NCBI GenBank assembly: GCA_903937385.1
Contig: CAIZZF010000015.1
Span: 62,001 to 126,000, forward strand
From: an uncultured Holophagaceae bacterium
Lineage (GTDB): Bacteria; Acidobacteriota; Holophagae; Holophagales; Holophagaceae
Direction of reading: 5' to 3'
Length of the DNA: 64,000 bases
Below the pieces are notes generated by a model. That model searched no databases and was not told the DNA's origin. It saw only the letters and a list, made by a program, of their open reading frames with translations. The translations under genes were made by a program, and so were the position numbers. This document shows, in pieces, positions 36,105 to 41,325 of this stretch. Position 1 is the first letter of the stretch; every line of letters starts with the position of its first letter.

Positions 36105-36180
36105 GGGCCTGTAGCTCAGCTGGGAGAGCGCTGCGTTCGCAATGCAGAGGTCGTCAGTTCGATCCTGATCAGGTCCACCA
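36105..36180 (+). tRNA. tRNA-Ala (anticodon CGC)
   Basis: The 76-nt cloverleaf has acceptor arms GGGCCTG and CAGGTCC, a D-arm GCTC/GAGC, an anticodon stem CTGCG/TGCAG around loop TTCGCAA (anticodon CGC, codon GCG), a T-arm with GTTCGATCC, and an encoded 3' CCA. The G3-U70 wobble pair, the alanine identity element, is present. Confidence 0.96.
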
Positions 36181-36184
36181 AGAG

Positions 36185-36215
36185 AAATCCCCTGAGCGAT
36201 CAGGGGATTTTTCTT
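36185..36215 (+). terminator. intrinsic terminator after tRNA-Ala
   Basis: AAATCCCCTGA (36185-36195), a GCGA tetraloop and TCAGGGGATTT (36200-36210) form a perfect 11-bp stem followed by a T-rich run. It ends the tRNA transcript and possibly korAB read-through. Confidence 0.92.
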
Positions 36216-36280
36216 GTCTCCTGAAGGGCGCTCACCCCACAGGCAAGGAGGCACCAGCGCAGCTGAGGGCTGCGTGCTGG

Positions 36281-39232
36281 CTACTTGATCTGCTTTATGA
36301 GCAGCGAGGCGGAGACGGACTTGGTGCCCCCGGCAATGGGAGTCATGGTCAGTGCCGTCGAATTGCCCGTCGGGTTCCGGACGCTGACACGGGAGTTCGC
36401 CAAGCTCGTCTCAATCAGCACATGATTCGCAATCTGAGAGGTGCCGGTGGCCCGTCCAACCACCGTGAAGGCCTGCTCCACCTCGTTGAGCCAGAGGACG
36501 AGCTGCCCTGGCTCATCCACCGTGACCTGCCAGGACACTTCGTAGACGCCCACCGCTGGCAGGTAAAATTCGCCAGCGCTTGCCCGGCTGATCCCGCTTG
36601 CCGCTCCGTCCTGCGAAAAGCTCACCGCCGTAGCGCCAGCGACCGTGGCAGCGTTATCCGGGGGCATGAGCGCGTAGAAGAAGCCAAATGCCAGGGTGCC
36701 GGACGGGCCCTGCTGCCCGGTCGCGCCGATGGTGCCCTGTAGCCCAGTATCGCCTGGGAGTCCGCTCACTCCCGCGATGCCCGTGGCGCCAATCGAACCC
36801 GCATCGCCCTTGGAACCTGTTGCACCGACTCCGCCTGTCAGTCCGATCACTCCCTGGCTTCCGGTGCTACCCGCGGCACCAGTGGCCCCTGTGGTTCCAG
36901 AGGCCCCTGCCGTTCCTTGCAGACCGGTGGCACCGATCGAGCCCGTCAGGCCCATTAAGCCCTGGAGCCCCAACGCTCCCGCCGTTCCCGTGGCACCTGT
37001 TGCACCCGCATCGCCTTTGGCGCCGGCTGCACCGGCGCCGCCGGTCAGGCCGATCGCTCCCTGGCTACCCGCGCTGCCCGCAGCACCGGTGGCTCCCGTG
37101 GTTCCGGGGGCCCCTGCCGTTCCCTGCAGACCAGTGGCACCAATTGCACCTGCATCGCCCTTGGCACCGGCTGCACCTGCGCCACCCGTCAGACCGATCA
37201 CTCCCTGGCTACCAGCGCTACCCTCAGCGCCAGTGGCTCCTGTTGATCCGGAGGCCCCTGTCGTTCCCTGCAGACCGGTGGCACCCGTCGATCCCGTGAG
37301 ACCGATCGTACCCTGGAGCCCCGATGCGCCCGCCGTTCCCGTGGCGCCTGTCGCGCCGGCATCACCCTTGGCACCGGCTGCACCGGCACCACCCGTCTGC
37401 CCGATCACACCCTGGAGCCCACTCGCTCCTGCGGCTCCCGGGGCGCCCACGGCACCGGCGTCACCCTTGGCACCGGCTGCACCGGCACCACCGGTCAGTC
37501 CGATCGCCCCCTGGCTGCCGGTGCTACCCGCAGCACCGATCGAACCCGTCTGACCGATCACACCTTGGAGTCCACTCGCTCCTGCGGCTCCCGGGGCGCC
37601 CACGGCGCCGGCATCACCCTTGACGCCAGCTGCACCAGTACTGCCCGTCAGTCCCATCACGCCCTGGCTGCCGGTGCTACCAGCAGCCCCGGCGGCTCCC
37701 GCCGTTCCCGTGGCGCCGACCGCACCGCTTGCGCCCGCAGCACCGGTCGAGCCCGTCTGCCCGATCAGGCCCTGGAGCCCACTCGCTCCTGCGGCTCCCG
37801 GGACTCCCGGGGCGCCCACGGCACCAGCGTCACCCTTGGCACCGGGTGCACCGGCACCGCCCGTCAGTCCGATCGCCCCCTGGCTTCCAGTGCTGCCCGC
37901 AATACCTGTGGCTCCCGTGGATCCGGAGGCCCCTGTCGTTCCCTGCAGGCCGGTGGCACCGGTCGGACCTGTCAGGCCAATCAAGCCTTGGAGTCCACTC
38001 GCTCCCACGCTTCCCGCGGCGCCGACGGCACCCGCATCGCCCTTGGCCCCAGAGACCCCTGCGCCGCCCGTCAGGCCAACCGCTCCCTGGCTACCAGCGC
38101 TACCCGCAGCACCTGTGGCTCCCATGGATCCAGGTGCTCCTGTCGTCCCCTTAAGGCCGGTCGCACCGATCGAGCCTGCCAGACCGGCAGCGCCCTGAAG
38201 TCCGCTCGCTCCCGCGGTTCCCATGGCGCCGATCGCACCGGCATCACCTCTGGCCCCGGCGGCACCGGCGCCGCCCGTCAGGCCCACCGCTCCCTGGCTT
38301 CCGGCGCTACCCGCAGCTCCGGTGGCCCCCGTCGTTCCCTGCAGGCCGGTGGCACCGACCGAGCCCGGCAGGCCGACTCCACCCTGGAGGCCTAACGCTC
38401 CCGCCATCCCGCTGGCACCCGTCGTACCGACCTCACCCCTGGCACCTGCCACGCCGTCGGTACCCGCTGGCCCCACGAGGCGCATCCCAGCGAGCGGCCA
38501 AACCCCAGCAACCTTGGGGCCGTGGAGGTTGCTGGCGACCGTGTTCAGGTAGAAGTCACCGTCGATGCCGACGCTCTCGAGGGGATCCGTGATTCCACTC
38601 AAGATCGTCTTCCCGTCGAGCCCCTTCATGCCGGCTGCGCCGACCTCGCCCTTGGGACCGATCGCACCCACATCACCTTTGGCACCGATGGCAAGGACCC
38701 CACCGCTCAGGCCAATGAATCCCTGGCCAGCAGAAGAGCCCGCGGCACCGGTGGCTCCCGAGGCCCCTGTCCTTCCTTGTGGGCCGGTGGCACCAACCGA
38801 TGCCGTCAGACCTGTCACCCCTCCAAGTGCCTTCTCTCCCAAAGCAGCGGTAGAGCCTGCAGCCTCCTTGGCCCCCGTCACGGCTTCAGCTTCCACGGGC
38901 CCCGCCGGACGCACCTCGATCACAGACCAAGCCCCCGCGACCTTGGGGGCGTGAAGGTCCAGGGCGTCGGTCTGAGACACATGGCAGGAGATACACAGGA
39001 AGCGAACCCCGACGGCACTCTCGCCCTTGGCCTCGGGGGTCCGATGGAGGTCCACCAGGTTGCTGACGGGGGCACCCTTTGGCAGGCGGCCCGGGAGGGT
39101 ATGACAGTCATTGCAGAGGTCGGCACCCCGGGTGATCGGGATGAAGTAACCCGCACCGTGGGCGGTCACCGGCGGGGAGCCCCCCAGCAGAGAGACAGCA
39201 CTGAACGCGAGGAGGAGGATGAAATGGCGCAT
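36281..39232 (-). CDS. secreted dihaem c-type cytochrome / collagen-like fibre protein
   Basis: The product is 983 residues from the ATG at 39232. A signal peptide (MRHFILLLAFSAVSLLGG) precedes a small domain with two haem c motifs, C40-N-D-C43-H44 and C80-I-S-C83-H84; H25, H63 and H94 are possible distal ligands. A Gly-X-Y collagen-like region runs from about 146 to 844, interrupted at about 208-255 by a non-collagen insert (KTILSG through GPKVAGVW) known from bacterial collagen-like proteins; a short related piece (LHAPKVAGAW) follows haem 2. The stalk has about nine copies of a block of up to 23 triplets. The last 139 residues (GTLAFGFFYALMPP onward) resemble a BclA/C1q-like trimer head. 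No lipobox or sortase signal is seen. Inferred: a trimeric exported redox fibre; function untested. The further-upstream start at 39322 is rejected. Confidence 0.85.
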   Translation of the reverse strand: MRHFILLLAFSAVSLLGGSPPVTAHGAGYFIPITRGADLCNDCHTLPGRLPKGAPVSNLVDLHRTPEAKGESAVGVRFLCISCHVSQTDALDLHAPKVAGAWSVIEVRPAGPVEAEAVTGAKEAAGSTAALGEKALGGVTGLTASVGATGPQGRTGASGATGAAGSSAGQGFIGLSGGVLAIGAKGDVGAIGPKGEVGAAGMKGLDGKTILSGITDPLESVGIDGDFYLNTVASNLHGPKVAGVWPLAGMRLVGPAGTDGVAGARGEVGTTGASGMAGALGLQGGVGLPGSVGATGLQGTTGATGAAGSAGSQGAVGLTGGAGAAGARGDAGAIGAMGTAGASGLQGAAGLAGSIGATGLKGTTGAPGSMGATGAAGSAGSQGAVGLTGGAGVSGAKGDAGAVGAAGSVGASGLQGLIGLTGPTGATGLQGTTGASGSTGATGIAGSTGSQGAIGLTGGAGAPGAKGDAGAVGAPGVPGAAGASGLQGLIGQTGSTGAAGASGAVGATGTAGAAGAAGSTGSQGVMGLTGSTGAAGVKGDAGAVGAPGAAGASGLQGVIGQTGSIGAAGSTGSQGAIGLTGGAGAAGAKGDAGAVGAPGAAGASGLQGVIGQTGGAGAAGAKGDAGATGATGTAGASGLQGTIGLTGSTGATGLQGTTGASGSTGATGAEGSAGSQGVIGLTGGAGAAGAKGDAGAIGATGLQGTAGAPGTTGATGAAGSAGSQGAIGLTGGAGAAGAKGDAGATGATGTAGALGLQGLMGLTGSIGATGLQGTAGASGTTGATGAAGSTGSQGVIGLTGGVGATGSKGDAGSIGATGIAGVSGLPGDTGLQGTIGATGQQGPSGTLAFGFFYALMPPDNAATVAGATAVSFSQDGAASGISRASAGEFYLPAVGVYEVSWQVTVDEPGQLVLWLNEVEQAFTVVGRATGTSQIANHVLIETSLANSRVSVRNPTGNSTALTMTPIAGGTKSVSASLLIKQIK
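36701..38797 (-). repeat. collagen-like Gly-X-Y repeat array
   Basis: About 2.1 kb of 9-nt codon triplets with Gly in every third codon, arranged in roughly nine higher-order blocks of up to about 70 residues. Recurrent pieces are GSQGAIGLTGGAG, GAKGDAGAVGA, GASGLQG and TGATGLQGTTGASG. Block lengths differ by whole triplets, so the frame and glycine register are kept; one block has lost its GSQG opening. Ala and Thr are common at X and Y, and the antisense strand reads as Pro-rich ORFs that are artefacts. Confidence 0.9.
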
Positions 39233-39341
39233 GGTGACTGCCACGCCCCTCTCAAACCGTCCCTTAATCTGGGAACCAGGGGCTTTCAGGCATCGATCAG
39301 AAACTGCCCTCGCGGACCACATGAGTAAGCCCTAATTGTTA

Positions 39342-39371
39342 ATTTTATTTAAATTATTGAAGGGAGATCAA
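39342..39371 (-). promoter_or_regulatory. candidate promoter for the cytochrome-collagen gene
   Basis: On the minus strand TTGATC (39371-39366), an 18-nt spacer and TAAAAT (39347-39342) lie in a markedly AT-rich stretch (39330-39440), about 110 nt before the start. The rest of the 308-nt gap up to 39540 shows no gene. Confidence 0.4.
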
Positions 39372-39540
39372 AGATCATGGGTGCCTTCCTGAGGATGGAC
39401 CGATGTAAAAAAAGAAGAATACGCTTCATTACGTACGAATGCAGAAGACACCCAAGACCCGTCTGGTTAAACCAGCCCTGGAAATGGGTAACTTACAGCC
39501 CTGGCTGCTGCTCCGGCAATCCGCCTGGCTGGCCCTGCCG

Positions 39541-39822
39541 TCAGTTGGCCCGGGTTCTCTCGCGGGGCGGGCCCTGGGACTTCAGGAAGCCCAGCACGGC
39601 GGAAGGGCGGAAGAAGTGCCCCTGCAGGCCTGCCACCTCCACCAAGGGAAGGCCGCTCCTGCAGAGCTCACTGGCGGGGTCCAGGAGTTCCTTCTCGTCG
39701 ATGAAGTAACCCGCGGAGACGAGCCGCCTGGCCGGGTCTACGGCCACCACCAGCCAGCCCACGGTGAACAGGAAGAGGGCCCGGTCGTGGCCGATGATCG
39801 TCTTTGCGGTTTGCTGCTCCAT
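39541..39822 (-). CDS. small hypothetical protein (93 aa)
   Basis: I do not recognise this family. It begins MEQQTAKTIIGHDRALFLFT, has a moderately hydrophobic segment (LFLFTVGWLVVAV) and ends in a basic tail. The residue pattern and codon use look like coding sequence, whereas the overlapping plus-strand frame looks like a shadow. The Shine-Dalgarno is weak (GGTGAG, close to the ATG). It follows another small minus-strand ORF by about 66 nt. Confidence 0.5.
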   Translation of the reverse strand: MEQQTAKTIIGHDRALFLFTVGWLVVAVDPARRLVSAGYFIDEKELLDPASELCRSGLPLVEVAGLQGHFFRPSAVLGFLKSQGPPRERTRAN

Positions 39823-39888
39823 GGTCTCACCAATACGGATGACTATCTGGGTTGATCGGGGTCGCCAAGCCGCAGGCCTGGCCTGGCC

Positions 39889-40044
39889 TCAAGAGGCGGC
39901 CTGCCGCTTTGGCGCGTTGAGGTAGTCCAGGACGCCCACCAGGAAGCCCTCAGCCGTGGGACCAAGGGCGAGCCACTGGTAGGTGGCCCCCTCCGTCGCT
40001 GAGCGGTAGTAGTGCGAACGGCACCCCAGGGTCGATGTGTCCAG
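39889..40044 (-). CDS. very small hypothetical protein (51 aa), possible CTG start or remnant
   Basis: An open frame ends at TGA 39889-39891 and reads DTSTLGCRSHYYRSATEG, then ATYQWLALGPTAEGFLVG and VLDYLNAPKRQAAS, with clear coding character. No ATG, GTG or TTG is available before an in-frame TAG; a CTG at 40044 follows a GGAGGGAGAGG stretch and may be the start. It is too short for ordinary ORF listings. It could be a real microprotein or the 3' remnant of a longer gene. Confidence 0.4.
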   Translation of the reverse strand: MDTSTLGCRSHYYRSATEGATYQWLALGPTAEGFLVGVLDYLNAPKRQAAS

Positions 40045-40173
40045 AGAACCTCTCCCTCCGAGTGTCCCTTTCCCGGCTCCCCCGACCTAGAATTCGGAGC
40101 CGAAATGGGGTCCGGTCGGGCGAAGCAGGACTCCCTGCCTTGGAATGCCCCCCAGATCTGTTTAGCTTGAAGC

Positions 40174-41325
40174 ATGCGCATTCTCGTCCTGCTGATGTCT
40201 GCCCTGCTGCTCCAGGCCCAGGCCTTCGAGGCCCGGGGCCTCGCCGAGCTTCGGGCGGCCCTCGGCCGGGCCATCGAGACCAAGGTCACGCCCGGGGCTG
40301 TCTACTGGTGTGACCACGCAGGCCAGGAGGTCCACTGGGCCCAGGGCAACCGGGCGCTGGTTCCCTCGGTCGAGGCCATGACCGAAGACACCGTGTTCGA
40401 TGCCGCCTCCCTCACCAAGGTCGTGGCCACCCTGCCCTCGGTCATGCTCCTCCTGGAGCGCGGGAAGCTGGAGCTCGACGCCCCCGTGCAGCGCTACCTG
40501 CCGGAGTTTCGGCACCCGCGCGTCACGGTGAAGCACCTGCTCACCCATACCTCGGGTCTGCCCTCAGGCCTGCCCAAGCTGGAAGGCCGCAAGGATTGGC
40601 AGGGCTACGCGGAAGGCATCCGCCAGGCCTGCGCCTGTGTGCCCGATCCCGGCCCGGGCCTCCAGTTCCGCTACAGCGATGTGAACTTCATCCTGCTGGG
40701 TGAGATTGTCCACCGCCTGAGCGGGCGCCCCCTGGAGGTGTTCGCCGCAGAAGAGGTGTTCGCCCCCCTGAAGATGCTGGCCTCGACCTTCAAACCGGGA
40801 GCCAGCCTGCTCCCCCGCATCGCACCCACGGAGCGGGACGAGCACGGCGCGGTGCTGCGGGGCGTGGTCCATGATCCCACGTCGCGGCGCATGGGCGGGG
40901 TGGCCGGTCACGCCGGGCTGTTCACCACTGCGGCCGACCTGGCGAAGTATGCCCGGTTCATCCTGCGGGGCGGACCACTGCTGAAGCCCGAGACCCTGCG
41001 GCTGATGCGCAGCGTGCAGACGCCAGCCAACGTCCCTGAGCGGCGGGGCCTCGGCTGGGACATCGACACCCTCTACAGCCGGCCCCGCGGCAGCCTCTTC
41101 GCGCTGGGCTCCTTCGGGCACACGGGCTTCACCGGCACGACGATGTGGCTGGATCCCGCCACGGACACCTTCTTCATCCTGCTCACCACGCGCCTGCACC
41201 CGGACGGCAAGGGCGACACCCGCGCCTTGAATGCCGAGATCGGCACCCTCACGGCCCGGGCGATCGGCCTCACCGTGCGGAAGGACTCTGCCCTGGCGGG
41301 CCAGGGACTTCGGCTCGGCCCGTGA
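40174..41325 (+). CDS. exported serine hydrolase, class C beta-lactamase / penicillin-binding fold
   Basis: The product is 383 residues with a signal peptide (MRILVLLMSALLLQAQA). The SxxK motif is SLTK (nucleophile near residue 80), the second motif is YSDVN near residue 169, and HTGFTG near residue 313 stands for the KTG box. GVAGHAGLFTTAADLAKYA is typical of the beta-lactamase/EstB/DD-peptidase superfamily. In this neighbourhood a role on cell-wall peptides or D-amino acid esters is likely, but esterases share the fold. Its stop overlaps the next gene's GTG. Confidence 0.9.
   Translation: MRILVLLMSALLLQAQAFEARGLAELRAALGRAIETKVTPGAVYWCDHAGQEVHWAQGNRALVPSVEAMTEDTVFDAASLTKVVATLPSVMLLLERGKLELDAPVQRYLPEFRHPRVTVKHLLTHTSGLPSGLPKLEGRKDWQGYAEGIRQACACVPDPGPGLQFRYSDVNFILLGEIVHRLSGRPLEVFAAEEVFAPLKMLASTFKPGASLLPRIAPTERDEHGAVLRGVVHDPTSRRMGGVAGHAGLFTTAADLAKYARFILRGGPLLKPETLRLMRSVQTPANVPERRGLGWDIDTLYSRPRGSLFALGSFGHTGFTGTTMWLDPATDTFFILLTTRLHPDGKGDTRALNAEIGTLTARAIGLTVRKDSALAGQGLRLGP

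Follow-up and report, generated by a model that had tools for sequence, protein, structure and literature searches.

The window analysed is a stretch of 64,000 nucleotides from an uncultured Holophagaceae bacterium. Its reverse strand contains a gene of 983 uninterrupted codons (Table 1), located between a tRNA-Ala(CGC) and a gene of the beta-lactamase family. The encoded protein consists, in order, of a signal peptide, two CXXCH motifs, Gly-X-Y repeats in three blocks, and a head of about 139 residues. The original prediction of one secreted polypeptide with two CXXCH motifs after the signal peptide is borne out, as no frameshift splits the haem domain from the stalk. The N-terminus resembles the start of the bacterium's own NapB (MRHSILLL) and that of the collagen-like proteins of the genus (MRHFIL). 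No outer-membrane anchor was seen in the protein, and it has no match among defence families. With two haem motifs and no lipobox, it is not a ten-haem lipoprotein of the OmcA/MtrC type. The architecture of a chimera with a dihaem domain, a collagen-like stalk, and a head is practically certain. It appears to be a genuine and so far undescribed combination of known domains; the literature searched yielded no paper combining a cytochrome, a collagen-like stalk, and such a head, as had been anticipated.

Table 1. Features of the fusion gene and of related loci. Positions are those of the window.
Feature	Residues	Position	Strand	Basis
Whole fusion gene, 983 aa		36281..39232	(-)	single open frame
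Sec-type signal peptide, no lipobox	1-18 to 1-24 (cleavage site uncertain)	39161..39232	(-)	sequence reading
NapB-like dihaem domain	19-92	38957..39178	(-)	Pfam NapB; PDB NapB 1jni; own NapB
His25, first distal haem ligand by homology	25	39158..39160	(-)	invariant alignment column
CNDCH, haem-binding motif 1	40-44	39101..39115	(-)	sequence, alignment
Asn58 (replacing canonical second distal His) and new His63 (NLVDLH)	58-63	39044..39061	(-)	alignment, spacing
CISCH, haem-binding motif 2	80-84	38981..38995	(-)	sequence, alignment
Fusion junction, truncated GPK linker module LHAPKVAGAWSVIEVRPAGP	93-112	38897..38956	(-)	matches intact module of same protein
First short Gly-X-Y stretches	147-167 and 183-209	38606..38794	(-)	triplet count
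GDFYLNT...GPKVAGVW linker module interrupting the stalk	about 223-253	38474..38566	(-)	module shared with further collagen-like proteins from the genus and the genome
Main stalk, 198 unbroken Gly-X-Y triplets	254-847	36692..38473	(-)	triplet count, Pfam, repeats
Head, BclA/C1q-like	about 845-983	36284..36700	(-)	Pfam BclA_C; Foldseek
tRNA-Ala(CGC) bordering the variable site		36105..36180	(+)	
Tethered decahaem lipoprotein loci of this bacterial family (L075, L077, L083, L087-L095, L097-L099, L102, L104, L106-L108)				9-16 triplets overall

The haem-binding domain

The haem domain resembles NapB. Taken alone, it matches the Pfam NapB family (PF03892) with an E value of 3.4e-5 and 24.4 bits, just below the gathering cut-off of 25.1. 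The whole fusion protein scores 19.7 bits, also below the cut-off, and the separate NapB of the same genome 80.3 bits. NCBIfam likewise identifies the domain as NapB, and a sequence match in the PDB is NapB 1jni (E 4e-4). A profile of the domain together with NapBs from the genus and from proteobacteria finds NapB structures only, with an E value of 6e-24 to 3ml1. The identity to the bacterium's own NapB is 57% over residues 19-93. Alignment and profile place both CXXCH motifs in a NapB-type context. No variation occurs among the 23 aligned sequences at the four cysteines, the two CXXCH histidines, or the first distal histidine, and the haem motifs pointed out in the original prediction are thus conserved among homologues. 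The two-haem cytochrome that it described is indeed a dihaem domain, but a known one, NapB from periplasmic nitrate reduction, which had gone unrecognised. A tree places the domain together with NapBs from the nearest species, but its branch is long and the grouping weakly supported. Judged from these sequence comparisons, the haem module almost certainly originates from NapB, the dihaem subunit of periplasmic nitrate reductase.

Approximately 45 NapB residues between the signal peptide and the haem core are missing from the fusion. The inter-haem loop comprises 35 residues, four fewer than in the NapBs of the genus and the same as in proteobacterial NapBs. Both distal histidines of NapB are axial haem ligands in NapB structures. 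All 22 other aligned sequences have a histidine at the canonical second distal position, where the fusion has Asn58. His63 lies 19 residues after the first CXXCH, and the corresponding distance in other NapBs is 17-19 residues. The AlphaFold model of the domain has a pLDDT of 50, which is too poor for judging a ligand swap. If the fusion is expressed, haem is quite probably attached to it.

The collagen-like stalk and the head

The stalk contains 214 Gly-X-Y triplets, or 642 residues, and the protein matches Pfam Collagen (PF01391) with 277 bits and an E value of 4e-84. The stalk, for which the original prediction gave about 700 residues of Gly-X-Y repeats, is interrupted by a non-collagen module. 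The glycine codons of the main run comprise all four GGN forms (69, 55, 51, and 23). The third base varies while glycine is kept at 198 of 198 positions, so the main stalk is not a low-complexity accident, and very recent duplication is not enough to account for its glycines. Its DNA contains tandem repeats of several periods, up to 207 bp (with 76-81% matches), which show how the stalk grew.

The main stalk is very poor in proline, which makes up 2% of its residues and 2.3% of its X positions. Across all bacteria, proline occupies 19% of the X positions of bacterial collagens (PMC8968730). The low proline content makes a stable triple helix uncertain, and the helix may be weak. The stalk has 11 Lys-Gly-Asp/Glu (KG[DE]) motifs, which might aid the stability of the predicted triple helix. 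With a collagen-type rise of about 0.286 nm per residue, 594 stalk residues correspond to about 170 nm, and the stalk could reach 170-180 nm.

The head matches Pfam BclA_C (PF18573) with an E value of 2.7e-5 and 24.5 bits, below the cut-off of 38. In Foldseek, the head model finds BclA structures first (3tyj, E 1e-6, TM 0.66) and then C1q/TNF heads; the pLDDT of the model is a modest 57.6. The modelled head has a BclA-like C1q/TNF jelly-roll fold, in agreement with the beta-rich, trimer-type domain originally proposed. BclA and C1q/TNF heads are trimeric families, and on the basis of the model the fusion would, on balance, be expected to form a trimer through its head.

The junction and the origin of the chimera

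The module that directly follows the haem core, LHAPKVAGAWSVIEVRPAGP, was compared with the intact copy, and 0 of 5000 shuffles were as good. Its resemblance to the intact GPK module places the junction within that module of the collagen family, and the gene is thus a NapB/collagen chimera. At the level of sequence, the comparison shows an origin by in-frame fusion of a NapB copy with a collagen-like, BclA-headed surface protein. The NapB copy supplied the signal peptide and the dihaem core, lacked about 45 residues of the N-terminal part of NapB, and took the place of the usual N-terminal domain of the collagen protein.

Distribution and genomic site

The fusion was found in 1 of 47 genomes of the genus. 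Searches of the 46 others by haem domain and by head did not find it. Searches by NapB and by head found no further fusion in 396 genomes of the phylum. None was found in a scan of GTDB contigs, and a scan of viral contigs found neither the fusion nor relatives. Of the co-occurrence of haem and collagen domains across the group, which the original prediction had raised, the genus searches found this one case. NapB frames of more than 600 aa in G390, G397, and G324 were considered as fusions and rejected, as all lack collagen; they are a napA-napB frame, an alternative frame over napA, and an octahaem protein. The 1111-residue open frame in G390 (L047, contig C21) comprises NapA and then NapB. 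It may be a genuine fusion of napA and napB, or a stop codon may be missing between the genes by chance.

In G022, the two genes that border the fusion gene are only about 250 bp apart and the site is nearly empty. In G023, an unrelated metabolic gene set lies between the tRNA and the beta-lactamase-family gene. These differing contents indicate that the site, which covers positions 36180-40174 of the window 3' of the tRNA, is variable. The genes at the G023 site resemble a glyoxylate/hydroxypyruvate pathway (a carboligase, an isomerase, and two reductases), being named by reading only. An integrase-type island found no support, and direct repeats of the tRNA end do not flank the fusion gene. 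A short ORF at 39541-39822 (-) of the window is conserved in G023 and G003 (L041 and L043) and has no Pfam match.

Comparison with known systems

NapB (PF03892; PDB 1jni, 1ogy, and 3ml1) shares with the fusion the two CXXCH motifs, the first distal histidine, and the haem-core motifs, and NapBs of the same genus are up to about 62% identical to its haem domain. In contrast to NapB, the fusion has lost the N-terminal segment, has an apparently moved second distal histidine, carries a stalk and a head, and does not lie beside napA. BclA and the BclA-like collagen proteins of Bacillus exosporium filaments likewise consist of an N-terminal domain, a long collagen-like region, and a C1q/TNF-like C-terminal head. 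The fusion differs from them in its cytochrome N-domain and its proline-poor stalk, and it is not a Bacillus spore protein.

The closest comparison within the genus is with the collagen proteins L023, L024, and L025, from three genomes. Their heads are 62-69% identical to that of the fusion and they have the GDFYLDT/GPK linker module, whereas they contain no CXXCH and no haem, and their stalks are shorter and richer in proline. In L023 and L024, the N-domain is of the 'AYQGRL' kind, proline occupies 30-46% of X in the short collagen stretches, and the GDFYLDT...GPK module is present; the N-domain is readable in these two only, as the N-terminus of L025 is lost at a contig end.

The cytochrome PgcA of Geobacter is also secreted and carries its haem modules on long repeats of the tripeptide type, but these are PTx/PAx and not Gly-X-Y, there is no head, and circular dichroism of PgcA found no collagen-like structure (PMC5732950). 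In Bucl8, a collagen-like part is added to an unrelated functional module, as in the fusion; Bucl8 is, however, an efflux outer-membrane protein without haem (PMC7682875).

Proposed role

A chimera that forms a haem-bearing surface fibre is the best explanation, with roughly even chances of being correct. The NapB-like domain would be exported via Sec and would receive two c-type haems in the periplasm. The C1q-type heads would trimerise the chain, so that a fibre of up to about 170-180 nm would bear six haems, all at the same end. A straight fibre of this length is too long for the periplasm and is therefore probably displayed outside the cell. It may serve as a surface adhesion or matrix fibre whose haem end would act at short range on other cytochromes of the surface or the periplasm, by electron exchange or by docking. 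A redox-tipped or haem-anchored surface fibre is our best guess, made with modest confidence, and a redox role of the fusion in particular is doubtful. Because the stalk is insulating and has all its haems at the same end, the fibre is no wire along its length, and only local electron exchange or docking is left. Of the redox centres on a rigid stalk that were originally proposed, the dihaem domain and the stalk are present, but the low proline content makes a stable triple helix uncertain. Nothing ties the protein to the metal respiration that was also suggested. If the explanation is correct, the protein would be a natural cytochrome-collagen chimera, which would show how a respiratory electron carrier can be moved onto a surface fibre and could be used directly as a scaffold for protein fibres that carry haem.

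The strongest competing view, possible but not favoured, sees the haem domain as a passenger in decay. A NapB copy would have been joined by accident to a fibre that, if it works, is an ordinary adhesin, and haem binding would be vestigial or structural. The gene is a singleton at a variable, tRNA-adjacent site, and the loss of the canonical second distal histidine is accompanied by a four-residue deletion. The protein has also changed faster than the NapBs, with a Nei-Gojobori dN/dS of about 0.48 (fusion to L004) versus about 0.17 (L002 to L004). Decay is harder to reconcile with the intact frame, the reappearance of a histidine at the right spacing, and the retention of both CXXCH motifs, the first distal histidine, and 23 of 31 genus-invariant NapB positions over a long branch. 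A codon model with F3x4 frequencies rejects neutrality of the haem domain by 15 lnL units, whereas equal frequencies do not (1.75 lnL units), and the branch is near saturation.

The asparagine at the canonical second distal histidine would also fit a sensor or peroxidase-like site, in which the changed ligand opens one haem to small molecules and the haem cluster is shown on the fibre. This is very unlikely, since the spacing of His63 suits a replacement ligand and no catalytic residues are known. Slightly less likely still is a continued function in nitrate reduction, in which the NapB domain docks to NapA and is trimerised by the stalk into a multivalent nitrate-reductase scaffold. The NapB ancestry and an intact napA in the genome are compatible with such a scaffold. 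However, the fusion lacks the N-terminal NapB segment and has a stalk far exceeding the periplasm, and the genome retains an ordinary napA-napB pair, with NapB directly after a NapA-like subunit, on another contig; no nap genes surround the fusion. Least likely of all is an assembly artefact linking a NapB paralogue and a collagen gene: the genome is a draft of 30 contigs and collagen repeats are prone to mis-assembly, but the join is in frame and falls within a GPK module that has diverged, the rest of the genome has no identical sequence that could have caused it, the haem domain differs from all other NapBs, and the gene lies inside a 253-kb contig, away from its ends, with flanks syntenic with G022.

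Collagen-like segments on other cytochromes

Six other genes of the genome match collagen (L070-L075). L075 (832-3207; G000:C8:84834-87206 in the bacterium's own genome) encodes a ten-haem lipoprotein of the OmcA/MtrC type, in which the lipobox is directly followed by 16 Gly-X-Y triplets. Among the loci of the TIGR03507 search, decahaem lipoproteins of this type from the same family have 9-13 triplets after the lipobox, mostly (GTN)n, against 1-3 in the members retrieved from the phylum's other families. With L075 included, the triplets of the family are mostly GTN or GAT. These sequences suggest that this bacterial family may tend to place its cytochromes on collagen-like segments, although the Gly-X-Y tethers are short and could be plain flexible spacers. 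The decahaem tethers, present throughout the sampled family members, offer an explanation, open to testing, of how cytochromes on the outer surface contact their acceptors. The haem-bearing surface fibre favoured here could be one case of such family-wide positioning, comparable to the OmcA/MtrC-type tethers, in which a surface collagen-like trimer with six c-type haems derived from a nitrate-reductase subunit presents redox centres away from the envelope or at its base; this broader proposal is speculative and rather improbable.

The five further long collagen-like genes, on contigs C11, C26 (two genes), C7, and C3 (L070-L074), contain no CXXCH. Four of the five have the 'AYQGRL' N-domain and GPK modules, and the fifth (C3) ends at a contig edge. 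Their C-termini differ, and some resemble tail-fibre or chaperone-type ends. The genome also contains a large multihaem cytochrome (L003, G000:C16:50176-53319), with at least 14 CXXCH motifs in an open frame of 2672 aa.
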